From Stappia sp. BW2 (lineage in GTDB: Bacteria; Pseudomonadota; Alphaproteobacteria; Rhizobiales; Stappiaceae): a stretch of DNA of 64,000 nucleotides. The translations under genes were made by a program, and so were the position numbers. The DNA lies in NCBI RefSeq assembly GCF_008107695.1, contig NZ_VIRG01000070.1, forward strand, positions 310,001-374,000. The letters run 5' to 3'. Under the pieces are notes generated by a model. It was not told the origin of the DNA. It searched no databases and saw only the letters and a list, made by a program, of their open reading frames with translations. Of this stretch, positions 1 to 4,210 are shown piece by piece. Positions within the stretch are counted from its first letter, which is position 1, and the number at the start of each line of letters is the position of its first letter.

Positions 1-123
1 GCGGCCGAGCAGCAGCAACAGCAGCAGCTTGCGACAGGCGAAATCATGGCGCGGATCGCCCGCGACGGGGCGCCGCTTCTGCAGGCCCTGGGTGGCGAGG
101 GAGGGCTGGATGGTCTGGCGTAG
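1..123 (+). CDS. C-terminal end of an upstream phage-type gene (partial)
   Basis: Frame 1 is open from the window edge and stops at TAG 121-123, giving the last 40 residues of a protein. The tail has a run of glutamines followed by a short helix-like segment ending in GGLDGLA. The next gene starts inside it, at 110, so the two are probably translationally coupled. Its place just before a Bbp19-like gene and a scaffold-like gene suggests a phage portal or head-tail connector. That is inferred from position only, because the visible part carries no diagnostic motif. Confidence 0.5.
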   Translation, partial: AAEQQQQQQLATGEIMARIARDGAPLLQALGGEGGLDGLA

Positions 124-426: not shown

Positions 427-1338
427 ATGTACGACGCGATTGAGCCGGCAGCAGGACCGGAGGCCGGCGGGCACGACGGTTCTGGACACGATGGTATGGG
501 GCATCACCCTTCGGAGGGGGGAGGTTTCATCGACAGCCTGAGCGATGCCGACCGGGACATGGCCGCCAGCTATGGCTGGCACGATACCGCCGGCATTCTG
601 GAAGGCTATCGATCGCTGGAAGACAGACTGTCCGGGGCGCTTCAGGTTCCGGGCGAGGAGGCCGGCAGCGAGGAGCAGGCGGCCTTTTATGCCGATGTTT
701 CCAGCCGCTGGACACCGAAGGACGGCTATCGCTTCAAGATGCCCGAGGCGCTGCCGGAAAACTTTCCCTACGACCAGGCCTTTGCGCAGGAAGCCGGAGA
801 CTGGTTCAAGGAGGCGGGGCTTCACCCGGAGGCAGCGCAAAAGCTGCACGACCGGTGGGTGGGCAAGATGGCAGAGCAGTTTTCCGCCCATGAGGAAGCG
901 GCTTTTGACGCCGCGCAGAAACAGGGCCAGGCGGCCGAGGCAGCGCACCTGTCCCTGGTCAGGGAATATGGCGAACCGGACAGCGACGGCTATCAGAACG
1001 CCATTGCCAAGGCCGACCGGGCGCTGAGCACCCTGAAGACGGCCGGGGTGGACCTGACAGGATGGTTTGCGGAAAAAGGCGCCCTGACCACGGCTGGCAG
1101 CGACGGTTTGCAGCAGGTGACGGACCCCGTGGCGGTGAAGCTGCTCGCCTTCATCCACGACAGCGCCTTTGCGGAAGACGGCCTGAACGGTTTCGGCGCG
1201 AGTGGGGAGGGCGGCAACCCCTTCGAGACCGGCAATCCGGACCTCAGGCAGCAGTCGGATCTTCTGGAAAACAGCCCCTTGCGGGCACGGCAGATGATCG
1301 TCGCAGCGGGGCGGGATCCACGGTTGTTCGGGCTGTAA
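427..1338 (+). CDS. Scaffold-like phage protein with C-terminal AGRDPRLFGL tag
   Basis: The 303-residue acidic protein has a histidine/glycine-rich N-terminus, a middle segment with the W-P-DGY-F-P pattern seen in phage scaffolding or capsid-assembly proteins, and a long helical region rich in Ala, Glu and Gln. Residues 264-303 form a distinct C-terminal module starting NPF and ending AGRDPRLFGL. The same 40-residue module, ungapped, ends the glucosaminidase at 1811-2686. Start ATG 427 has GAGGAA upstream. In related phages the major capsid gene usually comes next, but it is absent here, which indicates deletion or replacement. Function is inferred from order and composition. Confidence 0.5.
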   Translation: MYDAIEPAAGPEAGGHDGSGHDGMGHHPSEGGGFIDSLSDADRDMAASYGWHDTAGILEGYRSLEDRLSGALQVPGEEAGSEEQAAFYADVSSRWTPKDGYRFKMPEALPENFPYDQAFAQEAGDWFKEAGLHPEAAQKLHDRWVGKMAEQFSAHEEAAFDAAQKQGQAAEAAHLSLVREYGEPDSDGYQNAIAKADRALSTLKTAGVDLTGWFAEKGALTTAGSDGLQQVTDPVAVKLLAFIHDSAFAEDGLNGFGASGEGGNPFETGNPDLRQQSDLLENSPLRARQMIVAAGRDPRLFGL

Positions 1339-1479
1339 CAAGCAGTCTTTTCAAGTTGCCGCGGCGGGGATGAGTGCAAATCGCGTTTGGTTCCGGTTTT
1401 CGATTGTTGATCTGGCAGATCATGTGCTTAACCCGAATGTCGGTACACGCGAAGAAAGCCAGTGGGGAGCGAAACCCTG

Positions 1480-1842
1480 TTAGTTGGTGAGTTCCTCGCA
1501 CCTGGGAATGATCCACGGTTCGCTGGATGGATCAATATCTGTAGACCAGAAGGCTAGGTCGCCGGTTTCCAGTACTTCTGCGTGTACCTGATAAACACTG
1601 ACATCGTCAGAGCCAGGCCATTTCTCGCGGCAGACAAAGGTTTTTCCCTCTAATTTTTGGCATCTTGCGCTGTGATAAGCGTGTTTTATCAAGAGTAGGT
1701 CGTCGATCATCGTGAAATCGTAAGGTATCCATTCTTCTGTGCAGAAATTTTCCTGCGCTTTTAATTCGTTCGCAGGAAGAACTACTAGTATATTTAAGGC
1801 GATAAACTTAATGAAAAATCTCGTCAACGAATTCACTCGCAA
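1480..1842 (-). CDS. Small secreted cysteine-containing protein, unknown function
   Basis: The 120-residue product starts with a basic n-region and a hydrophobic stretch ending ELKA-QE, a plausible signal peptidase I site near residue 29. The mature part has four cysteines (FCTEEW, ARCQKL, VCREKW, PRCEEL), enough for two disulfides. I do not recognise the family. It lies head to head with the glucosaminidase gene and its 5' end overlaps that gene's first codons by 32 bases, an unusual arrangement. Base composition is more AT-rich than the housekeeping genes, consistent with accessory DNA. A role in controlling the neighbouring hydrolase is possible but unsupported. Confidence 0.55.
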   Translation of the reverse strand: MRVNSLTRFFIKFIALNILVVLPANELKAQENFCTEEWIPYDFTMIDDLLLIKHAYHSARCQKLEGKTFVCREKWPGSDDVSVYQVHAEVLETGDLAFWSTDIDPSSEPWIIPRCEELTN

Positions 1843-2686
1843 TGTCTATATCGCAGCTAAAAACCTTGGGTTGCCTGATCCCCAGGCGCGCCTTGCGGCA
1901 ACACAAGCATCACTTGAGACTGCATATGGCAAATCTGTCAAGGGAAACAACTATTTCGGGATCAAGGCTGGAGCCTCTTGGAAGGGAAAAAAACAGGATT
2001 TTCGAACTTGGGAGGATGAGGGGGGAAAGAAAATCGTTCTGACAGACAGCTTTCGCAGATATGGCAGTCTACAGGAAAGCTTGCAGGACTGGGTTGAAAC
2101 GGTATCGTCGCGATGGCCTGATGCTATGTCCGCTCGCACATTTGAAGACGCGGTAAAGGGACTTCATGCAGGAGTGCCCGGCAAGGGCTATGCAACCGAC
2201 AAGCTCTATGGCCAAAAACTCAGCTATATTGAGCGAAAAATCGGAGAAACTTACGCTCCGCCGAGCGAAGGTCTTCAGAGATTTTTCCGAGAAACGGAAA
2301 AGGACGTTGATCTTCACAACATACTTATGGGGCATCGGAACGCACCAAGGTCACCGAACATTTTCGATACTCATGAAATGGCTAGTTTAAATGCTGCCGC
2401 GATACCAGTGCCGGATAGAAAACCTACTCCAGAAATGGAGGTACACCGAGAGTCCGCTTTAAATGTGACTCGGGACAGAACTGCAGGTCCGTCTCCTGCT
2501 GTTCCACGGCGAAAACCGGGTGCTGATCTCGCGGCTTCAGGACTTAGCAACGAAGAGGATTTTAATCCGTTCGATCTAAAAAATCCAAATCTCAAGTTGC
2601 AAGCAGCGCTTCTAGAAAAATCACCGGCGTTGGCAGAGCAACTGATAGTGTCCGCCGGTCGAGACCCCAGATTGTTCGGTCTCTGA
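1811..2686 (+). CDS. Glucosaminidase-family peptidoglycan hydrolase (phage-type lysin) with scaffold-type C-terminal tag
   Basis: Residues 1-150 match the FlgJ/LytG-type N-acetylglucosaminidase fold: LAATQASLETAYGKS carries the expected catalytic glutamate, followed by NNYFGIKAG, the FRRYGSLQESLQDW segment and a late Y-A-Y segment. The enzyme would cleave glycan strands in the wall. No signal peptide is visible, as in many phage lysins. A low-complexity linker (about 165-250) leads to residues 252-291, which match the last 40 residues of the scaffold-like protein upstream at 26 of 40 positions without gaps. ATG 1811 begins the conserved domain directly. Codon use is AT-richer than the upstream phage genes, so the tag match is not a recent duplication. 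Confidence 0.75.
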   Translation: MKNLVNEFTRNVYIAAKNLGLPDPQARLAATQASLETAYGKSVKGNNYFGIKAGASWKGKKQDFRTWEDEGGKKIVLTDSFRRYGSLQESLQDWVETVSSRWPDAMSARTFEDAVKGLHAGVPGKGYATDKLYGQKLSYIERKIGETYAPPSEGLQRFFRETEKDVDLHNILMGHRNAPRSPNIFDTHEMASLNAAAIPVPDRKPTPEMEVHRESALNVTRDRTAGPSPAVPRRKPGADLAASGLSNEEDFNPFDLKNPNLKLQAALLEKSPALAEQLIVSAGRDPRLFGL

Positions 2687-2823: not shown

Positions 2824-3594
2824 ATGAAATTGAACACCTTTCGCTTTATCAAGGGCTTTGGGGCAATTCTGAAAGTGTCGGGGGTTGTTGCTCTGCCGTC
2901 GGTTTGCCTGGCCGCGGACGGTGCTGTCATCCCGTGGGAACAGCAACCTGAAGTTCTTCGGTCTGAAATAGAGGGCTATGTCAATTCAAGCCTCGATCCC
3001 GCAATGTTCAAGGTGCAGGTCGCGGAGGATGTCCGTGTGGTCTATCTGGGCTTTTCGCCCGAGGAAATCGAACAGAATGCGGAGCAGTTTCCAGATATTC
3101 CAGGCCACGAGGTGACACATCTTCCTTATGGTCGAGAGGATTATTATAGCACTCCCGTAAATATTGTAGATTACCAGACAAATAATACGATCACCTTGCT
3201 CAGTGTTGATTTGACAAAGGATGTCGTGCCGGGCGCTGACCTCTATAAAGGAGACATCAGAAAAGTGCTCGATCCGGATGGGGATTTTTTCCATGCGATA
3301 GGTACCTCTGTTTATCAATTGATGAGAGCTGGCGGTGTCATCGTTGAACTCGGCCCCCCGATCGAGCGTTTTCGTGATGCGGAGTTTTTCTATCGCAAAG
3401 CATTGTTGAATACGGCCTGCACGTCTCAATTCGATTACGCGTCGTTTGACGACGGTACACAGGAAAACACCATGGTTGTTTATTCCGGCGCCGAACCCGG
3501 TTCTGCCGAGCAGCTTCAGTGCCTGGAGATGCAAGCTCTGGTTTTCATGCGGCCTGCGGGACTTGCATTCGAGAGTGTATCTTCGAACGACTGA
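2824..3594 (+). CDS. Secreted hypothetical protein
   Basis: This 256-residue protein has a signal peptide of about 30 residues ending VCLA-ADG. The mature sequence has PWEQQPEVLRSEIEGYVNSS near the start and two cysteines in the C-terminal half (TACTS and LQCLEM) that could pair. It probably acts in the periplasm or outside the cell. I do not recognise the family. It stands alone between the glucosaminidase and a small orphan gene, with 137 bases before it and about 300 after it. Composition is AT-rich compared with the chromosomal core, in keeping with the surrounding island. Confidence 0.6.
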   Translation: MKLNTFRFIKGFGAILKVSGVVALPSVCLAADGAVIPWEQQPEVLRSEIEGYVNSSLDPAMFKVQVAEDVRVVYLGFSPEEIEQNAEQFPDIPGHEVTHLPYGREDYYSTPVNIVDYQTNNTITLLSVDLTKDVVPGADLYKGDIRKVLDPDGDFFHAIGTSVYQLMRAGGVIVELGPPIERFRDAEFFYRKALLNTACTSQFDYASFDDGTQENTMVVYSGAEPGSAEQLQCLEMQALVFMRPAGLAFESVSSND

Positions 3595-3892: not shown

Positions 3893-4210
3893 ATGGAAAA
3901 CAAGGTGTCCGAGAAACAGGTCATTGAAGAACTGGATCAGATCCAGAAGCAACTTATGAAAAAATACGGCTCAGGAGGTGTTGCAAACGAAAAGCTGCAG
4001 GACGAGCTCAGAGAGTTTGGGAGTAAAGGCGATGGCTATTGGGACGCCAGAAAGATCCTCGAAGGTGCGCTTATCTACAACCGAACGCGGAGCGAGGATC
4101 CTGAAAAGCAGAAAATGGTTGATGAAATACTCGGCGAGAATTTGAAGGTTGGGCCGGCGGTATCTGGTTGTGGAACCCAAAAAGGTTGTTCATTCGCATT
4201 GAAGATCTGA
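3893..4210 (+). CDS. Small hypothetical cytoplasmic protein
   Basis: The 105-residue, charged, mostly helical product has no signal peptide or membrane segment. Its start is well supported: GAGGAGG lies nine bases before ATG 3893. The N-terminal 35 residues look coiled (KQVIEELDQIQKQLMKKY), the middle has a GDGYWDARKILEGALIYN segment, and the tail holds two cysteines (SGCGTQKGCSF). I do not recognise the family. It lies between two perfect inverted repeats and just upstream of a broken transposase, so it may have come in with mobile DNA. Confidence 0.55.
   Translation: MENKVSEKQVIEELDQIQKQLMKKYGSGGVANEKLQDELREFGSKGDGYWDARKILEGALIYNRTRSEDPEKQKMVDEILGENLKVGPAVSGCGTQKGCSFALKI

Follow-up and report, generated by a model that had tools for sequence, protein, structure and literature searches.

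A scaffold-type C-terminal tail common to a capsid scaffold protein, a glucosaminidase, and diverse cassette-encoded proteins of Roseibium prophages

The stretch of DNA analysed here (the window) comprises 64,000 nucleotides from the marine bacterium Stappia sp. BW2 (G000:C17:310001-374000 in its own 6.4-Mb genome, G000), and its start lies in a prophage region. The first genes encode a portal protein, a Bbp19-like protein, a capsid scaffold protein, a small exported protein, and a glucosaminidase (Table 1). The scaffold protein and the glucosaminidase end in a common module of 40 residues, designated here as the tail. The two tails align without gaps with 26 of 40 identities, and their last ten residues, AGRDPRLFGL, are identical. 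The original prediction, made from the sequence alone, had pointed out this module, and both open reading frames (ORFs) are open at the coordinates in Table 1. The names it gave to the two proteins, scaffold-like and glucosaminidase, were borne out by matches to PHROG 3742 and Pfam family PF01832, and by the position of the scaffold gene in relatives. The glucosaminidase also matches PHROG endolysin families (best E-value 5e-27). Relatives that carry the tail include Roseibium aggregatum IAM 12614, R. marinum, R. album, and Labrenzia sp. THAF82. The prophage of R. aggregatum IAM 12614 (L115) combines the tagged glucosaminidase with portal, scaffold, capsid, and tail genes. In the related prophages the gene order is portal, Bbp19, scaffold, cargo if any, capsid, a second insertion site, a 112-aa (amino acids) head gene, a 195-aa gene, and an 810-aa tail protein that belongs to phrog_376.

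Table 1. Features at the start of the window (coordinates are window positions).
Feature	Coordinates	Strand	Basis or remark
Portal (head-tail connector) gene, 3' end	1..123	+	Frame crosses the window edge; gene start at L002:18417 (L002, the 20 kb upstream of the window)
Bbp19-like phage protein	95..424	+	Pfam PF25181, E-value 5.5e-15; 87% to the L016 copy (tblastn)
Capsid scaffold protein, 303 aa	427..1338	+	phrog_3742, E-value 8e-16; between Bbp19 and major capsid gene in relatives
C-terminal tail of scaffold, 40 residues (264-303)	1216..1335	+	Common to scaffolds of 14 other phages
Exported 120-aa protein, candidate cognate immunity protein	1483..1842	-	N-terminus hydrophobic by eye; stop codon 1480-1482
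Tail-tagged glucosaminidase, 291 aa	1811..2686	+	PF01832 at residues 25-141, E-value 1.5e-14
Variable proline-rich linker from catalytic domain to tail (residues 206-251)	2426..2563	+	Low identity among glucosaminidase orthologues
Scaffold-type tail of glucosaminidase, 40 residues (252-291)	2564..2683	+	Sequence match to scaffold tail; predicted helices
Exported 256-aa protein, family recurring in cassettes	2824..3594	+	Signal-like N-terminus by eye
105-aa ORF, without tail	3893..4210	+	37% over 67 aa inside tagged protein L069:1675-2499 (tblastn)
81-aa prophage gene (phrog_6420), beyond the tail genes in relative L075	4636..4881	+	Marks the far side of the deletion

BLASTP between the two whole proteins recovered this region (27 of 43 identities, E-value 2e-14), and all other segments had E-values above 1. 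A hidden Markov model (HMM) built from ten tails matched exactly two places in the own genome, both of them in the window proteins. Over a core of 35 codons, 62 of 105 nucleotides and 21 of 35 amino acids are identical, with proportions of synonymous (pS) and nonsynonymous (pN) differences of 0.81 and 0.28. The scaffold tail has a G+C content of 64.2%, that of the glucosaminidase one of 49.2%. Because the BLASTP and HMM matches are this specific and the DNA and its G+C content are diverged, the sharing of the tail, judged from sequence, is neither chance nor a recent duplication, and the original prediction had read the diverged DNA in the same way. The AlphaFold model of the scaffold is mostly helical (mean predicted local distance difference test score, pLDDT, 67; predicted template modelling score, pTM, 0.32), and its tail is predicted as a helix-turn-helix with helices at residues 273-282, 284-293, and 298-301 after a disordered segment (250-261). 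The overall quality of the glucosaminidase model, which was built from three sequences, is low (mean pLDDT 42); the tail, the one part used, has three matching predicted helices at 261-270, 272-281, and 286-289.

Phage records searched with the window tail by tblastn gave weak matches in eight records of five phages (E-values 0.1 to 6). In four of the five phages the tail closes the gene directly 5' of the capsid gene; the match in the fifth, Acj9, is internal and unrelated. The tail HMM picked up a scaffold-like protein at L067 (E-value 4e-12), and the tail of this protein, used as a second query, matched 113 phage records at one place each (best E-value 3e-15). Ten of these records, picked for host diversity, were opened, and all ten have a scaffold gene ahead of the capsid gene, with one decoration gene separating the two in Bacillus phage 049ML001. 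This phage is a stand-in for SPP1, with gene sizes and a gene order that agree with those tabulated for SPP1 (PMC6316719). Altogether, 14 other phages among those opened have a scaffold gene that closes with the tail and is followed by the capsid gene. The scaffold bodies are spread over phrog_172, phrog_194, phrog_206, and phrog_3742, whereas the capsid proteins scanned with PHROGs match phrog_247 in 13 of 13 cases (Roseibium, A403, Vid5, and the ten opened phages). The capsid proteins of R29Z and Pmp13 match Gp13-like (Pfam scan only), and the Roseibium capsid protein matches the structures of SPP1 gp13 (E-value 2e-31). The sequence comparison identifies the tail as the C-terminal module found in SPP1-gp11-type scaffolds, on which PHROG 247 (SPP1 gp13-type) capsids are built. 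It tracks one capsid family across several scaffold families, as would be expected of an element that contacts the capsid.

Among the 22 genomes of other genera that carry the tail, a capsid gene lies within a stretch of about 3 kb in 15. The stretches from G124, G199, and G359 are shorter than about 3 kb, and in four genomes (G255, G297, G434, and G839) a capsid gene was not found in the short stretch examined, so a rare carrier of the tail without a phage link is possible. The original prediction had stated that a tail on many cytoplasmic proteins without a phage link would speak against it; no such pattern was found in the 45 genomes of the genus and the 113 phage records, ten of them opened. 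In other genera, tail-like motifs stand at ORF ends at L138:1135-1605, L139:1090-1605, and L136:634-1608, with no capsid gene within the 1.5 kb examined. In another genus of the order, a 169-aa ORF (L106:1369-1878, minus strand) has two tandem tails, with no capsid gene in the stretch examined. A search of the PDB with the tail profile gave a short repeat match to 7bpn, labelled NF7 (E-value 3e-7 summed over two weak stretches), and two further weak matches to tRNA ligases. A plasmid search gave three matches from Enterococcus raffinosus.

The tail HMM detected tails in 18 of the 45 genus genomes, at 58 places in total. According to the gene maps, 18 of these places are complete scaffolds (two in G040 and none in G024). 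The other 40 places, in 15 genomes, contain at least four duplicated scaffold ends, and also include short or broken frames. Roseibium prophages have zero to eight extra tail copies in the interval between the scaffold and capsid genes, some of them mere fragments, and the largest array (G033:C523) has eight besides the scaffold. The family's 42 other genomes have no tail. Samples taken across the order, the class, and the phylum, own genus included, had it in 22 of 397, four of 385, and four of 398 genomes, with as few as 18-19 candidates scored per genome; at this depth no array was seen outside the genus. Three genomes outside the genus have two tail places: on two contigs in G199, 210 bases apart in G359, and in tandem within one ORF in G434.

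The original prediction had proposed to search for the tail and tabulate the domains that precede it. When everything ahead of the tail was clustered (BLASTP, E-value 1e-5, 40 aa or more), the N-terminal parts fell into a scaffold cluster and at least 12 mutually dissimilar families with members of at least 140 aa, two of them with hydrolase domains. These are Glucosaminidase (PF01832) and SleB-type Hydrolase_2 (PF07486). Matches to Ntox44 (E-value 0.04) and DUF6973 (E-value 3.5e-4) were below the cut-off. Ten cargo proteins scanned with NCBIfam gave no usable match, and the matches of cargo proteins to PHROGs were weak, hydrolases excepted. In the tagged proteins of at least 140 aa the tag is C-terminal, followed by at most seven residues. 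Their genes sit between the scaffold and capsid genes, except one between the capsid gene and the next head gene. The scaffold-capsid interval holds up to 12 kb of cassettes in some prophages and is empty (about 15 to 424 nt) in four distinct ones (L061/L082, L064/L084, L083, and L086). The mean G+C content of cargo is 50.6%, against 58.7-65.6% for structural genes, as expected if the cassettes are exchanged. Duplicated scaffold C-terminal fragments lie within cargo arrays at L068:6122-6418, L068:8274-8528, L069:2528-2824, and L070:15645-15974, and it is possible that they are recombination seeds or raw material for new tags. A PVPxxKP-like motif was recognized in the linkers of 12 of 26 tagged proteins, for example at window:2405-2428.

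Immunity-like genes were found beside some of the tagged genes. An ORF with a hydrophobic start lies directly upstream (ORF end at -100 to +120 nt from the start of a tagged gene of at least 140 aa) in 13 of 26 tagged genes and in none of 105 structural genes; a lipoprotein ahead of the L072 cargo scored under the cut-off. In the window, the gene of the 120-aa exported protein is divergent from the glucosaminidase gene and overlaps its 5' end. The glucosaminidase domain occurs in seven of the 45 genus genomes and is always accompanied by the tail region of such a prophage; G033 has it on a 4-kb contig without structural genes, and G027 at the end of a contig. These seven genomes, and no others of the 45, also have the 120-aa protein, and the chance of an identical distribution is 1 in C(45,7), or about 2e-8, assuming independent genomes, which they are not. 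In the viral contigs L008, L009, and L010, 40-47 residues of the glucosaminidase start are left, and the 120-aa protein is full length with 90-100% identity. Orphan immunity genes are a hallmark of toxin-immunity systems. Among four copies the 120-aa protein has pN/pS of 0.19-0.39. It is most likely the partner of the glucosaminidase, which it may inhibit. Beyond the original prediction, the glucosaminidase belongs to a polymorphic set of proteins that comes with immunity-like partners.

The constraint on the tail was evaluated with three diverged glucosaminidases. Between the window protein and L078 or L073, respectively, the identity is 60 or 64% in the catalytic domain, 28 or 26% in the alignable linker, and 78 or 54% in the tail; between L078 and L073 it is 66%, 40%, and 61%. 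The pN values against L078 are 0.256 for the catalytic domain, 0.570 for the linker, and 0.135 for the tail, and those against L073 are 0.252 for the catalytic domain and 0.308 for the tail; across the pairs the linker ranges from 0.55 to 0.61 and the tail from 0.135 to 0.31. These comparisons indicate that the tail is constrained about as much as the catalytic domain, and that the linker is not. Over all tail pairs, pN/pS is 0.35 for cargo, a set that includes three scaffold fragments, and 0.32 for scaffolds, with synonymous sites near saturation. In a tree of 55 tails, the label of cargo or scaffold changes four times, against a mean of 17.5 after shuffling, none of 500 being as low. The tail of the window glucosaminidase groups with the tails of L065/L077, L078, L081, and L085. 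Dissimilar cargo families are found in common tail lineages, which fits the swapping of effector domains onto one tag.

The tail is probably a scaffold-derived capsid-loading tag on a polymorphic arsenal of putative toxins and immunity proteins. While the procapsid assembles, the scaffold tail would contact the PHROG 247 capsid protein on its inner face, a contact proposed because the tail is conserved with that capsid family and because scaffold-capsid contacts are known in other phages such as 80alpha (PMC5644958) and P22 (PMC9962691). On wall hydrolases and effector-like domains, the tail and its flexible linker would let the cargo co-assemble into the procapsid beside the scaffold. The mature podovirus would then eject the cargo with its DNA into the envelope of the recipient, where the wall or membrane would be attacked, and the exported, lipo- or membrane proteins encoded beside the cargo would protect lysogens and kin. 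Cassettes would be exchanged mainly in one interval, from the scaffold gene to the capsid gene, as in polymorphic toxin systems. These observations suggest that the phage head brings an exchangeable protein cargo into the cell that is infected next. A bolder form of this reading is evenly balanced between true and false: that Roseibium podoviruses have modular, swappable toxin-immunity cassettes in which every toxin is head-loaded by one scaffold-derived tag and injected into the recipient envelope, so that the phage head would be a protein-delivery machine in bacterial warfare, comparable to effector loading in the type VI secretion system.

The tagged hydrolases could instead be virion entry enzymes, packaged via the tail and opening the wall locally for DNA ejection, rather than weapons. 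The internal transglycosylase of phage T7 opens the wall for DNA ejection in this way. Two cargo families have recognized wall-hydrolase domains, and the tail protein of phrog_376 and the rest of the gene set, as read from the genes, are those of short-tailed phages. This explanation is nevertheless improbable, although it is the strongest of the rivals. The four prophages with an empty interval have no tagged gene there and keep full-length portal, scaffold, capsid, and 810-aa tail genes, which suggests that the phage does not need the cargo, provided that prophages with these intact genes are viable. Moreover, cargo types are many, interchangeable, and often accompanied by exported partners, and an entry enzyme has no obvious need for a kept, divergent partner gene.

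It is quite unlikely that the tail is a functionless relic of gene capture, in which sequences 3' of the scaffold gene were gained by recombination with scaffold 3' ends. The duplicated scaffold fragments in the arrays L068, L069, and L070 would fit such an origin, as would the many broken cargo genes and the few cargo tails (e.g., L060 and L010) that group with scaffold tails of their own phage lineage. A relic is hard to reconcile with three diverged glucosaminidases whose tails (54-78%) are about as conserved as their catalytic domains (60-66%), while the alignable linker is not (26-40%), or with cargo tails whose pN/pS, under saturated pS, is near that of scaffold tails. Furthermore, most cargo tails group apart from scaffold tails, and both the frame and the C-terminal position are kept in 12 families. 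The least probable explanation, and a very doubtful one, is that the tagged proteins are alternative or competing scaffolds that either alter the size of the head or interfere with a rival phage, in the manner of SaPI1 CpmB with its scaffold-like C-terminus. Its precedent is the C-terminal capsid-binding motif common to CpmB and the 80alpha scaffold (PMC5644958), but wall-hydrolase domains and exported neighbour genes would be superfluous for the control of head size.

Several points weigh against the tail being a loading tag for toxins. Of 11 cargo families scanned with Pfam, nine gave no match above the cut-off, and a twelfth, scanned with NCBIfam alone, gave none either. Many array members are broken, and multi-copy tagging was found in one genus alone, with as few as 18-19 candidates per genome scored in the order, class, and phylum samples. 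Half of the cargo genes (13 of 26), glucosaminidases included, have no upstream exported gene. The call of exported proteins is based on a simple hydrophobicity score and not on a signal-peptide predictor, the 26 tagged genes include near-duplicate loci, and the positive at L085 is probably a transposase piece. The relatedness of the genomes inflates the co-occurrence statistics. The tail tree leaves 24 of its 52 inner branches open and places 10 of the 33 cargo tails among scaffolds. In two of the three glucosaminidase pairs, conservation is slightly lower in the tail than in the catalytic domain, although it is higher in the third. The scaffold of SPP1 leaves the capsid as DNA enters (PMC6316719), and therefore tagged cargo might leave too. 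On the other side, engineered fusions to the P22 scaffold can remain inside capsids (PMC9962691), and retention of cargo is therefore possible by analogy.

The last of these points is the state of the prophage in the window. The capsid, 112-aa, 195-aa, and 810-aa proteins have no match in the window and the preceding 40 kb, while the control L075 matches all four, and a search of the own genome with the capsid protein gave no match, while two control genomes match. The prophage is therefore defective and has lost its capsid and tail genes, and unlike in relatives, its scaffold tail stands without an adjoining PHROG 247 capsid gene. With these genes gone, the prophage probably makes no particle. 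The pair of the glucosaminidase and the 120-aa protein is consequently a fossil or orphan payload in this genome. The original prediction had proposed a docking or packaging tag that brings the hydrolase into a particle. The scaffold-type nature of the tag is well supported by the comparison, but particles of its own prophage are not to be expected.

Relatives of the 256-aa exported protein are present in mapped loci both with and without the glucosaminidase, and this protein is possibly an orphan or second immunity gene. The 105-aa ORF is, by its similarity, probably a remnant of another tagged cargo family. A broken transposase-like sequence was recognized by eye at window:4240-4620, between the cargo remnant and the 81-aa prophage gene, and may have caused the loss of the capsid and tail genes. 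Upstream of the window, L002 includes a repressor-like ORF, terminase genes, an 804-aa ORF after tandem paralogues, and the portal gene, named from their translations. The portal is 92.6% identical to that of L016 in L002 and 79% at window positions 1-87 (tblastn). Between terminase and portal, the prophage includes a minus-strand gene that resembles a regulator and a rhodanese-like gene, both recognized by eye (L002:10223-11703). A second polymorphic unit follows at L002:11853-17872 (G000:C17:301853-307872), and consists of tandem paralogues of about 161 aa (MADFDDITGW...) and then a protein of 560-800 aa with a variable N-terminus and a common region of about 154 aa (residues 597-750 of the 804-aa protein). 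This unit sits at different sites in different prophages, and is also found in the interval from the capsid gene to the 112-aa gene in L063, L065, L068, L070, L071, L073, L074, and L077. The second-unit proteins scanned have no Pfam or PHROG match above the cut-off. None of the five large proteins examined carries the tail, and two of the five have a PVPxxKP-like motif near the C-terminus.

The capsid targeting sequence (CTS) of phage T4 is N-terminal and cleaved. The internal proteins of T4 are a diverse set with only this short sequence in common, which loads them into the scaffold core (PMC3012670). Likewise, the at least 12 dissimilar N-terminal families described here have only the tag in common; unlike the CTS, the tag lies at the C-terminus and is homologous to the end of the scaffold itself, and unlike the T4 internal proteins, the cargo resembles toxins directed at the wall and is accompanied by immunity-like genes. 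MuF toxins of temperate phages have variable toxin domains and are believed to travel in the phage head and to be injected (PMC5576092), and immunity genes lie beside them in a Bacteroides case (PMC11699363). They consist of a MuF domain and a C-terminal toxin, whereas in the tagged proteins the toxin-like domains stand at the N-terminus, ahead of the scaffold tail as carrier. Mu_F had no Pfam match in the glucosaminidase and 10 other tagged proteins scanned. The tagged cargo would work like the T4 CTS proteins and MuF toxins but belongs to neither, because its tag is C-terminal and no MuF domain was found. No report of scaffold-tagged toxins or of toxins from Roseibium phages was found in literature titles and abstracts, a scope outside which subscription papers and bioRxiv lie. 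If the tail is indeed a loading tag, it is a second route, beside MuF, for toxins into phage heads, and it links phage assembly with competition between bacteria. It is also a handle for finding unknown effector domains, given the families without a Pfam match (nine of 11 scanned).

Two further precedents involve scaffolds. CpmB carries the capsid-binding C-terminus of the 80alpha scaffold (a helix and hook with an RIIK motif), by which it binds the capsid protein (PMC5644958). The present case is similar in that a second protein bears the scaffold's C-terminus, but CpmB is itself a scaffold for small heads, while the second proteins here are enzymes and other effector-like proteins. The P22 scaffold has a C-terminal helix-turn-helix at residues 268-303 of 303 (PMC9962691); the window scaffold also has 303 aa, with its tail at 264-303. 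P22 scaffold-fusion nanocages are engineered for cargo loading (PMC9962691), whereas the construct described here seems to have evolved, with a different scaffold-capsid pair. If so, it is the natural counterpart of engineered scaffold-fusion loading, and the 40-residue tail is predicted to suffice for bringing foreign proteins into a procapsid of the SPP1 type. A constant module is combined with swapped effector domains, as it is in polymorphic toxin systems, and here the constant module that would deliver them is the tail of a scaffold.

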